NCBI GenBank assembly: GCA_014378995.1
Contig: JACMMP010000166.1
Coordinates: 1 to 51,704 of the forward strand
Length of the DNA: 51,704 nt
From: Hyphomonadaceae bacterium
GTDB taxonomy: Bacteria; Pseudomonadota; Alphaproteobacteria; Caulobacterales; Aquidulcibacteraceae
Direction of reading: 5' to 3'
Under the pieces are notes generated by a model. The model was given only the letters and a program-made list of their open reading frames with translations. It was not told the origin of the DNA and searched no databases. Below, in pieces: positions 39,155-43,289 of the stretch. The translations under genes and the position numbers were made by a program. Positions within the stretch are counted from its first letter, which is position 1. Each line of letters opens with the position of its first letter.

Positions 39155-39961
39155 ATGCCCGACAAGCCGCTCCCGCCCATCCAAAGCCTCGATCAGATCA
39201 ATTCGCCGAGCTACCGACTGGCGGCGCTGGATCAGGACTTCCTGCTCAGCGACGAAATGCGCGGCGTGCGATTCCTGCTGGAATACTCGAAGGCCGAGAA
39301 TGCGCTGAAGCAAGCCGGCATCATCTCAACGCTGGTCGTATTCGGCGGGGCCCGCGTGCGGGAGAACGGGCCGGACAAGGAAGCGCTGTGGTACGACCAA
39401 GCGCGCCACTTTGGGCGCATCGCGTCAGAACGCGGCGGCGCACTGAACTGCCCAAGCGGGCAGTGCAGGAACGTGATCGCGACCGGGGGCGGCCCCGGCT
39501 GCATGGAGGCGGCCAATCGCGGCGCGATCGACGCCGGCGCGCCTTCGATCGGCTTCAACATCACACTGCCGCACGAGCAATTTCCGAACGCCTACACAAC
39601 CCCATCGCTCACCTTCAACTTCCACTACTTCGCCATGCGCAAGATGCACCTCGCTATGCGCGCGAACGGCCTCGTCGTTTTCCCCGGCGGCTTCGGCACC
39701 CTCGATGAGCTGTTCGAGATGCTCACGCTTCGCCAGACACGCAAGGCGCCACTGGTGCCGATCGTTCTCTTTGACGAAGCATATTGGCGCTCGATCATCA
39801 ATTTCGAAAAGCTTGTTGAGTATCGCACCATCGACGCCGCCGACCTCACGCTTTTCCGTTTCGCCGATACGGCCGACGCCGCGTGGGACGCGCTCGTCGA
39901 ACAAGGCTTGGGCCGCGCGCACGACGATAGCGCGCCCGACGTGGTTCAGAAGGACATCTGA
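39155..39961 (+). CDS. LOG-family Rossmann protein (TIGR00730)
   Basis: A 268-residue protein of the LOG/YgdH family. It has GGGPGCMEAANRGAIDAG and the family signature PGGFGTLDELFEMLTLRQT near 170-190. Family members hydrolyse nucleoside 5'-monophosphates to base and ribose-phosphate; in plants they release cytokinin, in bacteria they probably serve nucleotide salvage or clean-up. The N-terminal 70 residues (LDQINSPSYRLAALDQDFLLSDEMRGVRFLLEYSKAE) mark the longer bacterial version. Start chosen at MPDKP. Divergent from mutL. Confidence 0.9.
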   Translation: MPDKPLPPIQSLDQINSPSYRLAALDQDFLLSDEMRGVRFLLEYSKAENALKQAGIISTLVVFGGARVRENGPDKEALWYDQARHFGRIASERGGALNCPSGQCRNVIATGGGPGCMEAANRGAIDAGAPSIGFNITLPHEQFPNAYTTPSLTFNFHYFAMRKMHLAMRANGLVVFPGGFGTLDELFEMLTLRQTRKAPLVPIVLFDEAYWRSIINFEKLVEYRTIDAADLTLFRFADTADAAWDALVEQGLGRAHDDSAPDVVQKDI

Positions 39962-40056
39962 GCGGAGCGGCGAATTCCCGACGCATCTCGACACAATTTT
40001 TCCGCGTGCATGCGCGCAAATCATGTGTTAGACGCGCCCTCCTTCGGAGACGTGTT

Positions 40057-40152
40057 GTGAAAAAGCTGAACCCAGTCGCCCAAAACCAGATGTTCGTCGC
40101 GTATTGCGGCGAGCGGCTGGATACGCGCGCACGGAGGAGTTCGGCTACCTGA
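40057..40152 (+). CDS. Possible short leader ORF upstream of rtcB
   Basis: In the 300-base stretch between the LOG gene and rtcB, a GTG with GGAG seven bases upstream opens a 31-codon frame (KKLNPVAQNQMFVAYCGERLDTRA...). Its end is out of frame with what looks like a natural end, TEEFGYLTSSDIGA, at 40135-40174, which would follow if one base were added near 40131. Its remains stop just before a perfect terminator. Either a short coding gene with one base missing, or part of a non-coding leader/small RNA. I do not recognise the peptide. The rest of the 300-base stretch shows nothing else. Confidence 0.3.
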   Translation: MKKLNPVAQNQMFVAYCGERLDTRARRSSAT

Positions 40153-40174
40153 CGTCTTCGGACATCGGAGCATG

Positions 40175-40210
40175 AAAAACCCCTCCAAGGCGCGGCCTGG
40201 AGGGGTTTTT
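40175..40210 (+). terminator. Perfect terminator hairpin upstream of rtcB
   Basis: AAAAACCCCTCCA pairs perfectly with TGGAGGGGTTTTT around a 10-base loop (13 base pairs, a five-T tail). It ends a short transcript 50 bases before the rtcB ATG. It could be a true terminator of a small RNA/short gene or an attenuator controlling rtcB. Confidence 0.85.
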
Positions 40211-40262
40211 CGTACGCGCTCCAGGCCGCTTTTGAAACATTGAAAACAAAGGAGAACCGGCC

Positions 40263-41471
40263 ATGTCCGGTTACGAAGAAATTCTTGGCGCACGTGCGCC
40301 GATCAAGGCTTGGATCAGCGGCGTGCCGGTGGAGCATGAGGCGCAAAACCAGCTGCGCAATGTTGCGTCGCTGCCGTTCATCCATAGCCACATCGCGGTG
40401 ATGCCGGACGTACATTTCGGCATTGGCGCAACCGTGGGCTCGGTGATCCCGACCAAGGGCGCCATCATTCCGGCGGCCGTGGGCGTGGACATTGGCTGCG
40501 GCATGATGGCGGTGCGCACGTCGCTGACGGCAAACGATCTGCCAGATTCGCTCGCGCGCTTGCGCGGCGCGATTGAGCGGAACGTGCCGCACGGCAACGG
40601 CCCGAACGGCAATCACCGCGACACGCCGTCTTTGGTGGAGACGTCTTACCGCGACTCCGGCCTCGATGAGCGCTACCGCGCCATCATCGAGAAGCACCCG
40701 AAGGCGTCGGCCAAGACGCAAAGCGCGCAATTGGCGACGCTTGGCGGCGGCAACCACTTCATCGAGGTCTGCCTCGACGAAGCGGACCGCGTGTGGGTGA
40801 TGCTGCACTCGGGCTCGCGCGGCTCGGGCAACGCGATCGGCAAGTACTTCATCGGGCGCGCCCGTGAAGAATTGCTGACCCGCGAACTCGGCTACCACGT
40901 GCCGGACAAGGACCTCGCCTTCTTAATGGAAGGCGAAGAGCTGTTCGACGATTACGTGGCGGCGGTGGGATGGGCGCAAGACTACGCGCGCACCAACCGC
41001 GAGGTGATGATGGAGCGCACTCTGCGTGCGCTGCGGGACAACTTGCCGAAGTTCAAGCTCGATAAGCACGCGGTGAACTGCCACCACAATTACGTGGCGC
41101 GGGAACGGCACTTCGGCGCCGACGTGTGGCTGACCCGCAAGGGCGCGGTGCGGGCGGGCGAAGGCGAACTCGGGATCATTCCGGGCTCGATGGGCGCAAA
41201 GTCGTTCATCGTGCGCGGCAAGGGCAACCCGGATTCGTTCTGCACCTGCTCGCACGGCGCAGGCCGCGCGATGAGCCGCACCGAAGCCAAGCGCCGCTTC
41301 ACGCTCGACGATCACCGCAAGGCGACCGAAGGCGTGGAGTGCCGCAAGGACGCAGGCGTGATCGATGAAACGCCGATGGCCTACAAGGACATCGACGCCG
41401 TCATCGCCGCGCAAAGCGACCTGATCGACGTGGTGCACACGCTGCGCCAAGTCGTGTGCGTGAAGGGGTAA
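40263..41471 (+). CDS. rtcB: RNA-splicing/repair ligase RtcB
   Basis: A 402-residue RNA ligase that joins 3'-phosphate or 2',3'-cyclic phosphate ends to 5'-OH ends using GTP and manganese, for RNA repair. Metal-site residues are in MPDVHFG and GVDIGCGMM (D76, C79). LGGGNHFIEV and MLHSGSRGSGN are conserved; the guanylate-accepting His is H331 in CSHGAGRAMSR. AAGGAG lies nine bases before the ATG. Length is that of the compact bacterial RtcB. No rtcA, rtcR, archease or prfH gene is adjacent; instead tRNA genes follow it. Confidence 0.97.
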   Translation: MSGYEEILGARAPIKAWISGVPVEHEAQNQLRNVASLPFIHSHIAVMPDVHFGIGATVGSVIPTKGAIIPAAVGVDIGCGMMAVRTSLTANDLPDSLARLRGAIERNVPHGNGPNGNHRDTPSLVETSYRDSGLDERYRAIIEKHPKASAKTQSAQLATLGGGNHFIEVCLDEADRVWVMLHSGSRGSGNAIGKYFIGRAREELLTRELGYHVPDKDLAFLMEGEELFDDYVAAVGWAQDYARTNREVMMERTLRALRDNLPKFKLDKHAVNCHHNYVARERHFGADVWLTRKGAVRAGEGELGIIPGSMGAKSFIVRGKGNPDSFCTCSHGAGRAMSRTEAKRRFTLDDHRKATEGVECRKDAGVIDETPMAYKDIDAVIAAQSDLIDVVHTLRQVVCVKG

Positions 41472-41474
41472 AAT

Positions 41475-41541
41475 CGGCAGTCGCCAATCGGCAGTCGGCA
41501 ATCGGATCAAAACGACTGCCGACTGCCGACCTCCCGACTGC
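41475..41541. repeat. Palindromic repeat of CGGCAGTCG units downstream of rtcB
   Basis: The unit CGGCAGTCG (or CGGCAATCG) recurs in both orientations. 41489-41504 and 41513-41528 form a 16-base inverted repeat with one mismatch around GATCAAAA, so a stable hairpin can form three units from the rtcB stop; it may act as a terminator or be a mobile palindromic element. It directly precedes tRNA-Asp. Confidence 0.75.
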
Positions 41542-41550
41542 CGCTTCTTC

Positions 41551-41625
41551 GGCGCCGTGGTCCATGGGTGAAGATGCTGCACTGTCGATGCAGCGAGGCG
41601 GGTTCGAGTCCCGCCGGCGCCGCCA
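41551..41625 (+). tRNA. tRNA-Asp(GTC)
   Basis: A 75-base cloverleaf with encoded CCA: acceptor GGCGCCG/CGGCGCC (7 pairs), anticodon stem CTGCA/TGCAG with loop CTGTCGA (anticodon GTC at positions 34-36), T arm GCGGG/CCCGC with loop TTCGAGT. Discriminator G73 and G10 fit Asp identity. The D stem is weak (three pairs, one mismatch) and position 38 is A instead of the usual C. Function as a tRNA is probable. Confidence 0.85.
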
Positions 41626-41648
41626 CATTCAAATAGCAGGAGGCTACA

Positions 41649-41899
41649 ATGACAAAGCATCGCAACCCATTCGATCAACCCCGATTCGAGCGCTCCTCCA
41701 AGCGTCGCAAAGGATACCCGTCGGAAACGCACGTCAAACGCGGTGCGCGTACGGTGCGTTCGCGATGTGGAGCTGATCGAAAAGCTCGGCCGCAACGATC
41801 TCTGCCCATGCGGATCACGGAGATTGTTTCAAGCGCTGCTGCTTGAAGAGCGGCCGTCATGACGGCGCCGAGCGGAACCATTATTTCCGCGATGATTGA
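41649..41899 (+). pseudogene. Small SEC-C zinc-motif protein, broken by two frameshifts
   Basis: AGGAGG lies five bases before an ATG that opens a basic N-terminus (TKHRNPFDQPRFERSSKRRKGYPSETHVKRGART). A net +1 shift near 41750-41760 is needed to enter VELIEKLGRNDLCPCGS, which is the start of a SEC-C zinc motif. A second +1 near 41824-41829 (one T too many) restores its end LFKRCCLKSGRHDG and gives a stop at 41897. Without the shifts the product would be about 83 residues, C-P-C-G-S...K-R-C-C being the zinc ligands. SEC-C modules bind zinc and can contact ribosomes or RNA in SecA and related proteins. Lies between two tRNA genes. Confidence 0.72.
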
Positions 41900-41916
41900 G
41901 CGTTCGCGCGAGCTGT

Positions 41917-41991
41917 TGCCCGTTCGTCTAATTGGTAGGACGCCGGAGTTTGGTTCCGGAAATCCTCGTTCGAGTCGAGGACGGGCAGCCA
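41917..41991 (+). tRNA. tRNA-Gln(TTG)
   Basis: A 75-base cloverleaf with encoded CCA. Acceptor TGCCCGT/ACGGGCA (T1-A72 and G73 as expected for Gln identity), anticodon stem CCGGA/TCCGG with loop GTTTGGT (TTG), T arm CCTCG/CGAGG with loop TTCGAGT. Position 32 is G, which is rare. The D arm (GTCTAATTGGTAGGAC) differs from the usual alphaproteobacterial chromosomal tRNA-Gln. Confidence 0.93.
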
Positions 41992-41999
41992 AGTGCTGA

Positions 42000-42085
42000 G
42001 GACAGGTGGGTGAGAGGCCGAAACCGCGGGATTGTAAATCCCGTCCCTAACCGGCGCGTTGGTTCGAATCCAACCCTGTCCACCA
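42000..42085 (+). tRNA. tRNA-Tyr(GTA)
   Basis: An 86-base class II tRNA with encoded CCA. Acceptor GGACAGG/CCTGTCC, discriminator A73, anticodon stem CGGGA/TCCCG with loop TTGTAAA (GTA), a long variable arm (TCCCTAACCGGC) and T arm GTTGG/CCAAC with loop TTCGAAT. Eight bases separate it from tRNA-Gln, so both are probably one transcript; it ends one base before the stop codon of the convergent formate dehydrogenase gene. Confidence 0.95.
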
Positions 42086-42086
42086 C

Positions 42087-43289
42087 TTACTCCCGTTTGA
42101 AGCGCGCCGCCTCTTCCGAACCGCCCGTGGCATTGCCGGCGCTGTAGGAGTGCGCGCCTGTGCCTGCGAGCTTGCCGCCGGAGACGATGAGGTACTCATC
42201 GCGGATCGGGCGGCCGTCGAACCAGCATTCGAGAATTTCGCGCACGCCTGCAGCGTAGCGCGCCTGGGCCGAGAGCGACGTGCCGGAAATGTGCGGGGTC
42301 ATGCCGTGATGGGGCATGGTGCGCCATGAATGATCCCGAGGCGCCGGCTGCGGAAACCACACATCGCCCGCATAGCCCGCAAGCTGGGCGCTCTTCAGCG
42401 CCCGCGCCACCGCGTCGCGATCGGCAATCTTGCCGCGCGCCGTGTTGATCAGATAGGCGCCGCGCTTCATGCGGGCGATCATCTTGTCGTCGAACAAATG
42501 CTCGGTCTCGGGGTGCAACGGGCAATTGATGGTGACCACGTCGCAGTGCGGCACCATCTCGGCGGCGCTCGCGTGGAACGTGAGCCCTAATTCTTTCTCC
42601 ACATCCGCCGGCAGGCGATGGCGATCGGTGTAGTGCAGCTTCACATCGAACGGCTTCATCCGCCGCAACACGGCAAGGCCGATGCGGCCCGCGGCGACGG
42701 TGCCGACGCTCATGCCTTCGACATCGTACGAACGCGCAGCGCAATCGGCGATGTTCCAGCCGCCATCGAGCACCACTTGGTGCGACGGGATATAATTGCG
42801 GACGAGCGAGAGGATCATCATCACCACATGTTCGGCGACGCTGATCGAATTGCAGAACGTCACTTCCGCAACGGTGAGGCCGCGCTCCATCGCCGCTTGC
42901 AGATCGACGTGATCGGAGCCGATGCCGGCCGTGATGGCGAGCTTCAAGCTCTTGGCTTTGGCGATACGCTCGGCGGTGAGATAAGCGGGCCAGAAGGGCT
43001 GCGAGATGACGATTTCGGCGTCGCCGATCTCGCGGTCGAGCGCTGCATTGGCCCCGTCCTTGTCACTGGTGACGACGAGTTTGTGTCCACCCGCTTCGAG
43101 GAACTTACGCAAACCCAGTTCGCCCGACACCGAACCGAGCAGCGCGCCCGGCGTGAAGTCGATCGCCTTCGGCGTCGGCAGGGTTTGACCGTCGGGATAT
43201 TTTTCGAGCTTCGGCAGATCGTCGCGGGCATAAGTTTTTGGATACCCATCGATCGGGTCGTCATAGAGAACGCAGACTATTTTAGCCAC
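42087..43289 (-). CDS. fdh: NAD-dependent formate dehydrogenase
   Basis: A 400-residue D-2-hydroxyacid-dehydrogenase-fold enzyme, closely matching Pseudomonas-type NAD-dependent formate dehydrogenase from end to end (start AKIVCVLYDDPIDGYPKTYARDDLPK). N147 in VTFCNSISVAEH, the Arg in LINTARGKIADRD near 285, and the His in GMTPHISG near 333 are the catalytic residues. It oxidises formate to CO2 and gives NADH. GTG start with AGGAGG six bases before it. It stands alone, next to the tRNA cluster and convergent with it; formaldehyde-generating flavoenzyme and GFA genes are elsewhere in the window. Confidence 0.96.
   Translation of the reverse strand: MAKIVCVLYDDPIDGYPKTYARDDLPKLEKYPDGQTLPTPKAIDFTPGALLGSVSGELGLRKFLEAGGHKLVVTSDKDGANAALDREIGDAEIVISQPFWPAYLTAERIAKAKSLKLAITAGIGSDHVDLQAAMERGLTVAEVTFCNSISVAEHVVMMILSLVRNYIPSHQVVLDGGWNIADCAARSYDVEGMSVGTVAAGRIGLAVLRRMKPFDVKLHYTDRHRLPADVEKELGLTFHASAAEMVPHCDVVTINCPLHPETEHLFDDKMIARMKRGAYLINTARGKIADRDAVARALKSAQLAGYAGDVWFPQPAPRDHSWRTMPHHGMTPHISGTSLSAQARYAAGVREILECWFDGRPIRDEYLIVSGGKLAGTGAHSYSAGNATGGSEEAARFKRE

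Follow-up and report, generated by a model that had tools for sequence, protein, structure and literature searches.

A chromosomal rtcB gene followed by accessory tRNA genes and a frameshifted SEC-C gene: a candidate tRNA-damage cassette in a Hyphomonadaceae genus

Why should an RNA ligase gene stand directly before a few seemingly redundant tRNA genes on a bacterial chromosome? The question is raised by the window analysed here (the whole 51,704-nucleotide contig JACMMP010000166.1 of Hyphomonadaceae bacterium assembly GCA_014378995.1), in which rtcB is followed by tRNA genes for Asp, Gln and Tyr with a small SEC-C gene among them. The window is contig C239 of a 3.5 Mb draft genome in 252 contigs, designated G000 below; the genus sample used for comparison consists of 30 genomes, most of them drafts. 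With a probability of roughly 55%, the locus is read here as a chromosomal tRNA-damage cassette made up of an RNA ligase and reserve tRNAs, and the best account of its action, still unproven, is that cut tRNAs would be both repaired and replaced. This is supported by a conserved chromosomal site, by the second-copy status of the tRNAs, by constraint on them, by the absence of the array from most sites lacking rtcB, and by a similar pairing in viral contigs.

The rtcB gene (40263..41471, + strand, 402 residues) is predicted to encode a complete RtcB RNA ligase. PF01139 spans residues 30–402 in a profile search (E 5.8e-128), and the motifs VDIGCG, GGGNHF, HSGSRG, NCHHNY, and CSHGAGRAMSR stand at residues 75, 161, 182, 272, and 329. 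They align with the solved chain 2epg, deposited as a hypothetical protein, and the product also matches chains that carry the RtcB name (1uc2 and 7lfq, for example). In the RtcB family, Asp-Cys and His residues of such motifs belong to the metal and GMP site. No rtcA lies directly beside rtcB, whose neighbours are a lysine-decarboxylase-like gene and the tRNAs (the rest of the genome was not searched for rtcA), and no RF-1-domain gene was seen adjoining it.

Downstream, all on the + strand, lie tRNA-Asp(GTC) (41551–41625, 55.4 bits), tRNA-Gln(TTG) (41917–41991, 52.5 bits), and tRNA-Tyr(GTA) (42000–42085, 58.8 bits), called both by ARAGORN and by Rfam model RF00005 (gathering score 29); rtcB is thus within 300 bases of tRNA genes. 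The first-pass annotation, made from the sequence, had described this same-strand order, an encoded CCA in all three, and departures from the usual chromosomal tRNAs, and these descriptions hold. Its proposed check, whether they are second copies, also has a positive answer. RF00005 finds 43 matches in the genome, 40 of them outside the window, and among those 40 places ARAGORN names one more gene each for Asp(GTC), Gln(TTG), and Tyr(GTA), which rules out that the copies beside rtcB are the only ones. The only other tRNAs present twice are Ser(GGA) and CAT, with the reservation that the genome is 88% complete, so that a few tRNAs may be absent from the count. The window tRNAs are intact second copies and not recent duplicates. 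By eye, acceptor, D, and anticodon stems all differ from the canonical copies, as do the three anticodon loops: CTGTCGA versus canonical CTGTCAC for Asp, GTTTGGT versus TTTTGGT for Gln, and TTGTAAA versus CTGTAAA for Tyr. The part of the accessory Tyr nearest to its canonical copy is its 3' end, at 86% over 29 bases. With three tRNAs in the window and at most six in the genus, the array falls short of a tRNA array unit, which is defined by high tRNA gene number and density per region (PMC5966550).

An RtcB match was found in 19 of the 30 genus genomes (in two pieces in G015), and a 29-residue piece only in G042. Downstream of rtcB, 14 of the 19 carry between one and six same-strand tRNAs by ARAGORN, so the link proposed for a check in relatives is found in most rtcB-bearing members of the genus. 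The window's Asp-Gln-Tyr compares with Asp-Gln-Tyr-CAU-Pro-Glu in G019, Asp-CAU-Tyr-Pro-Glu in G004, Asp (mutated to GGC)-Gln-CAU-Pro-Glu in G041, Asp-CAU-Pro-Glu in G044, Gln-CAU-Pro-Glu in G014, and Pro-Glu in G009, G020, and G024. Single tRNAs follow rtcB in G018 (Tyr), G002 (Asp), G016 (Gln), and G010 and G045 (both Arg(TCG)). The subsets differ, and the order is constant save for Tyr and CAU, which are exchanged between G019 and G004. The first tRNA is no more than 460 bases from rtcB in 13 genomes and 1,042 bases away in G020. The CAU tRNA (Met, Ile2, or other) is 87–88 bases long (L064 9079–9165, also at L065, L080, L244, and L245), with a long variable arm, a body like that of the array Tyr, and a non-Watson-Crick first pair.

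The setting of the array is not that of a prophage or phage, since the chromosomal genes on either side are largely shared by the genus. Upstream are MutL and the lysine-decarboxylase-like gene; downstream are a TetR gene, a metal-hydrolase-like gene, two ACADs, and an M16 gene. Not every genome has all of them. In G014 and G010 (L080, L081) the RtcB at this site is only ~70% identical, as if the gene had been replaced, and tRNAs are present; in G015 the two rtcB pieces (L079 8907–9807) are followed by none.

The site was also read where rtcB is missing, by locating MutL in the ten genomes without an RtcB match and in G042. Six of these genomes show both flanks with no rtcB and no tRNA between them: G022, G011, G001, G005, G003, and G042 (the last without a complete rtcB). 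The 2.5 kb visible past the neighbour in G012 hold no match, and G006, G013, and G017 give no information on the site. DNA searches over the 30 genomes, with Asp, Tyr, Pro, and Gln copies as queries, gave matches of at least 85% of query length and at least 79% identity only at rtcB sites. Weaker matches were Glu- and CAU-type relatives at rtcB sites and short pieces of other tRNAs. Pro-like matches of 76–77% in G013, G014, and G022 were set aside as Pro(CGG) genes beside Gln(TTG), like the window genome's own canonical locus. A five-tRNA cluster (Tyr, Ser, Ser, Leu, Leu) occurs on a separate contig of G043 (G043:C6, L246 8489–8981); its Tyr is 77% like the array Tyr.

The array tRNAs appear to be under strong constraint relative to rtcB silent sites. 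Between pairs of genus genomes they are 0.85–1.00 identical, against 0.61–0.83 at rtcB fourfold-degenerate sites, a comparison confined to pairs of equal length (which drops the G004 Asp) and without an rtcB value for G014 pairs. The Asp tRNA is identical in G000 and G002, where rtcB fourfold identity is 68%. Every one of the 147 stem cells in the seven Pro copies is paired; only one pair varies among them, so covariation is uninformative.

Outside the genus, the pairing is enriched in viral contigs. The best 80 of 589 rtcB loci confirmed in cellular genome contigs, less two from the genus, were compared with the best 80 of 308 viral loci: a tRNA lies within 300 bases of rtcB at one of the 78 cellular loci versus 17 of the 80 viral ones, the latter not being independent, as some share the same tRNAs at equal distances. 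The sole cellular case is a tRNA-Pro in a deltaproteobacterial metagenome-assembled genome (L113); an open reading frame (ORF) that looks RusA-like by eye follows the tRNA, so this too is perhaps phage. The viral contigs have 0.77 tRNAs per kb up to 300 bases from rtcB versus 0.10 per kb at 300–3000 bases. One of them, L326, has its rtcB amid a 29-tRNA array; without it the densities are 0.66 and 0.046. Among the isotypes next to rtcB on viral contigs are Pro(TGG), Arg, Gln(TTG), Lys, Glu, and Tyr. Rows left unnamed by ARAGORN, all more than 300 bases away, were removed before these near and far counts, and at L149, which has no tRNA, the counting used a weaker rtcB match than the best one listed. 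Four Burkholderia loci have tRNA-like matches 1.5–2 kb upstream of rtcB, three of them unnamed by ARAGORN; these may be Y RNAs.

The SEC-C gene between the Asp and Gln tRNAs had been taken for the remains of a gene. It is on the + strand and, as far as sequence can tell, is a coding gene needing two +1 frame changes. Its first stretch (41649..41762), in the frame of an ATG with AGGAGG upstream, is followed by a second (41764..41829), +1 relative to the first and carrying CPCGS, and by a third (41831..41899), again +1, carrying KRCC and the stop. SEC-C adjoins rtcB in five genomes (G000, G019, G018, G002, and G043), and no single frame is open through any of the five copies. When each segment is read in its own frame, one conserved peptide of ~82 residues results, with the zinc motif CPCGS...KRCC. 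Three +1 changes are required in four genomes and two in G000, which has one base fewer at the first shift site; the site at which its relatives first shift is already in frame here, so that the window's first stretch corresponds to segments 1 and 2 and the others to segments 3 and 4. Where the genus copies make their last shift can be fixed only to within ~4 codons. The read-through peptides of G019 and G018, the two scanned, score 33.5 and 31.8 bits with PF02810; no NCBIfam model was above cut-off for the read-through peptide.

Across the five genomes, variable columns in each segment fall mainly at third codon positions, which is what speaks against remains. By codon position they number 6/5/12 in segment 1 (permutation p 0.003), 4/5/18 in segment 2 (p 5e-5), 3/1/15 in segment 3 (p 5e-5), and 2/3/15 in segment 4 (p 1e-4). 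A decayed gene was rejected on this ground. The frame change is kept and selection is seen on both sides of it, as for a programmed +1 shift, most weakly for segment 1, where pairwise codon differences are 31 nonsynonymous versus 15 synonymous (these pairwise counts leave out G000 in segments 1 and 2). Four-base decoding of the shifts by the accessory tRNA-Asp, whose G37 could pair in principle, was considered and rejected because G018 and G043 carry a frameshifted SEC-C gene with no adjoining Asp gene found.

Relatives of this gene extend well beyond the genus site. One lies at a different site in G010, with three +1 changes. Another is in an unannotated stretch of a Nitrospirota (Manganitrophus) plasmid, with two; it has an in-frame stop and no second cysteine pair, so it is perhaps decayed. 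Kovacikia minuta (a cyanobacterium) plasmid pA carries a 33-tRNA array closely followed by a frameshifted relative alignable in its second half only (L404 4793–9094), and the 18 kb examined there contain no match to rtcB. A pattern search found five SEC-C genomes besides G000 among 398 of the phylum and three, again not counting G000, among 385 of the class, with no matches to a reversed-pattern control in either. Members of the family (L297 4945–5205, L300 1465–1760, L301 1388–1600, and L307–L314) come from several orders and three phyla, each needing one to three or more +1 changes, and in the one annotated record examined (L300) the gene is unannotated. Loci L307–L314 were found by a pattern demanding an extra base at site 3, so the shift there cannot count as separate evidence, unlike their other shifts, which the pattern did not demand. 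In G087 (L315 5331–7470) a relative stands beside an RF-1-domain gene, taken for PrfH, and a distant RtcB, 28% identical to that of the window.

The neighbours of the other relatives, some named by eye, have no common theme. A constant tie to tRNAs or rtcB was rejected, there being no tRNA within ~1.5 kb of any of the eight loci L307–L314 and an rtcB match within that distance only at L309. A viral home was likewise rejected: a pattern scan of viral contigs gave one match, not SEC-C by eye (a control pattern gave two chance matches), and protein searches in phages yielded nothing beyond short or weak matches, in 10 records.

The shifts were placed by a frame-aware alignment of 16 members in which +1 and -1 were equally costed. 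From residue 13 on there are 39 +1 shifts versus three of -1, the latter all in that half of the Kovacikia copy, its first, which does not align; before residue 13, three -1 and six +1 shifts fall in poorly aligned N-termini (Kovacikia, L307, and L309–L312). The search pattern dictates eight of the 39 and the members are related, so these are not 39 events. Placement is at TTT followed by C or T for 22, no more than four codons before such a site for eight, and elsewhere for nine (the genus-specific second site five times, TCT_TGA twice, ATT_CGA once, and the end of L311 once). Four of the 22 are at the extreme gene end, three of them before the stop, where a shift may be unneeded. UUU_C is not always a shift: G002 SEC-C has an in-frame TTT before CGG near its end. 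In the window, the codons after the two shifts, read in the unshifted frame, are CGA and CAA.

How might such a locus work? Transcription of rtcB would run toward a small reserve array, presumably as one transcript with it. An anticodon nuclease (from a phage-triggered defence, a toxin-antitoxin system, or a competitor's ribotoxin) would cut cellular tRNAs; RtcB would rejoin the halves, and the array would supply intact tRNAs whose anticodons mostly repeat existing ones of the genome and whose bodies and anticodon loops differ. These could be poorer nuclease substrates; that they are charged, resist cleavage, and are induced by damage is presumed here. The functional part, repair by RtcB with spare copies in support, is thus what we infer from the arrangement. 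The SEC-C gene between the tRNAs is a second, real component, and whether its product is made could vary with the condition of the translation machinery, the +1 shifts preceding CGA and CAA. The Asp and Tyr tRNAs are targets of colicin E5, which had been offered as a reason for this choice of tRNAs. That argument falls short of the whole set, since other species carry Pro, Glu, Arg, and CAU tRNAs. The decoy role also suggested for the spare copies has no support of its own.

Several observations weigh against a cassette of this kind. Five of the 19 rtcB genomes (G008, G007, G023, G015, and G043) have no ARAGORN tRNA downstream, including G008, the nearest by RtcB (96% identity); the G043 contig ends ~570 bases past rtcB, and G007 retains an Asp-like remnant. 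The Asp copy of G041 has decayed, its anticodon now being GGC. In G021, one of the seven genomes informative on the site without rtcB, an array-type Arg tRNA is present there, ~100 bases away from the upstream neighbour; it matches at 98% across 60 bases, being truncated where the contig ends. All of the genus cases may stem from one inherited event, and relatives of SEC-C also sit with neither rtcB nor tRNAs nearby. A scan of 39950–42150 detected nothing resembling a sigma-70 promoter near rtcB. The three terminator-like sites in that interval are all on the - strand, which together with the missing promoter leaves co-transcription of rtcB and the tRNAs possible. RtcR (PF06956) was matched in none of the 30 genus genomes and, among 14 control genomes, in E. 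coli alone, so that a damage switch other than RtcR would be needed.

Some of these points would be expected if the tRNAs were phage-derived passengers, either a phage-type rtcB/tRNA array or lone phage tRNAs, placed after rtcB in the genus ancestor and now being lost singly without any part in repair. This is possible, if doubtful: the subsets vary by species, with a decayed Asp in one and a remnant in another, five rtcB genomes have no array, viral rtcB is often beside tRNAs of overlapping isotypes, and single accessory tRNAs resemble those of phages (Tyr 80%, Gln 75%). It does not readily explain why intact copies are so constrained relative to rtcB silent sites, why the order is mostly kept, or why the tRNAs are absent from six of the seven informative genomes lacking rtcB, and a phage origin is in any case compatible with a present function. 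Ordinary supply copies, kept for dosage or codon usage, would also be well-formed tRNAs with usable anticodons, as these are. However, the window anticodons duplicate canonical ones in a genome where nearly all other tRNAs are single copy, the bodies are divergent rather than duplicated, and close near-full-length matches to the four query tRNAs occur only beside rtcB, all of which makes this very unlikely. RtcB joins tRNA halves in archaea and eukaryotes, and its linkage to the array could in principle reflect maturation of these very tRNAs by splicing or end joining; each tRNA gene is continuous, neither split by an intron nor permuted, and G021 has its Arg tRNA without rtcB, so that such a role seems extremely improbable.

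The SEC-C ORF might similarly be a frameshifted pseudogene unrelated to the cassette. None of the five genus copies is covered by one open frame, nonsynonymous differences exceed synonymous ones in the first segment, G000 has TCG where its relatives have GGG before the second shift (so a P-site slip is not obvious), and the Manganitrophus relative lacks a second cysteine pair and has an in-frame stop. The third-position bias in each segment, and the like need for +1 changes in relatives from other orders and phyla, make a pseudogene quite unlikely all the same. If the gene is instead a working part of the tRNA-damage cassette, it could be imagined as a serial +1-frameshift sensor of the tRNA pool, acting with RtcB and the reserve tRNAs. 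Anticodon nucleases would deplete the tRNAs for the next codon, ribosomes would hesitate at sites such as UUU_CGA, UUU_CAA, or UUU_UGA, and SEC-C product would result; CAA, which follows one window shift, would be read by tRNA-Gln(TTG). Such a reporter role is speculation, and unlikely as it stands.

In the open-access literature searched (subscription papers were mostly outside it), no account was found of frameshifted SEC-C genes or of a reserve tRNA array joined to rtcB on a bacterial chromosome. If the sensor reading held, SEC-C would represent a family, unnamed as far as this literature goes, with several required frameshifts per gene, spread over at least three phyla and easily overlooked by annotation. 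Serial +1 shifts, should they be used, would amount to an unusual kind of gene control invisible to ordinary gene finding. SecA, it may be noted, ends in a SEC-C motif. A SecA cluster is listed among possible programmed-frameshift genes in PMC3711429; the term "SEC-C" is absent from the text of that paper and from the examined part of PMC5009743. Like prfB (RF2) and other +1 genes with UUU_Ynn sites (PMC5009743), SEC-C often shifts at UUU followed by C or U, and sometimes directly before UGA; unlike them, it has two to three shift sites in ~82 codons and encodes an SEC-C protein.

For rtcB, the locus offers a bacterial case of physical linkage between a tRNA ligase and reserve tRNAs, kept at one chromosomal site, in an arrangement that recurs on many viral contigs and would suit tRNA-cutting defences. 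Natural variants with, without, and with different tRNAs make repair plus replacement testable in one locus. A near counterpart is known from Anabaena sp. PCC 7120, where, according to PMC10272220, TrcR represses rtcB and a 26-tRNA accessory trn operon, both released under translational stress. There, as proposed here, RtcB and accessory tRNAs belong to one stress response; the Anabaena rtcB is chromosomal, its tRNAs are on a megaplasmid, and a repressor couples them, whereas here one to six tRNAs are same-strand neighbours. In Salmonella, cleaved tRNAs switch on rtcBA through RtcR (PMC7790460), and the ligase is likewise proposed to mend cleaved tRNAs; this genus differs in having no RtcR, no adjoining rtcA, and genuine tRNAs rather than Y RNAs. 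In RtcB2-PrfH operons (PMC9223846), RtcB is reported to answer a ribotoxin, and the G087 relative of SEC-C adjoins a presumed PrfH and an RtcB, unlike the window rtcB, beside which no such gene was seen. Phage tRNA clusters, finally, also hold additional tRNAs whose anticodon loops are altered, which has been proposed as a means of escaping nucleases (PMC10264068), and viral rtcB genes lie in or beside such arrays; the present locus differs from them in its few tRNAs and in its conserved site among ordinary genes of a bacterial chromosome.

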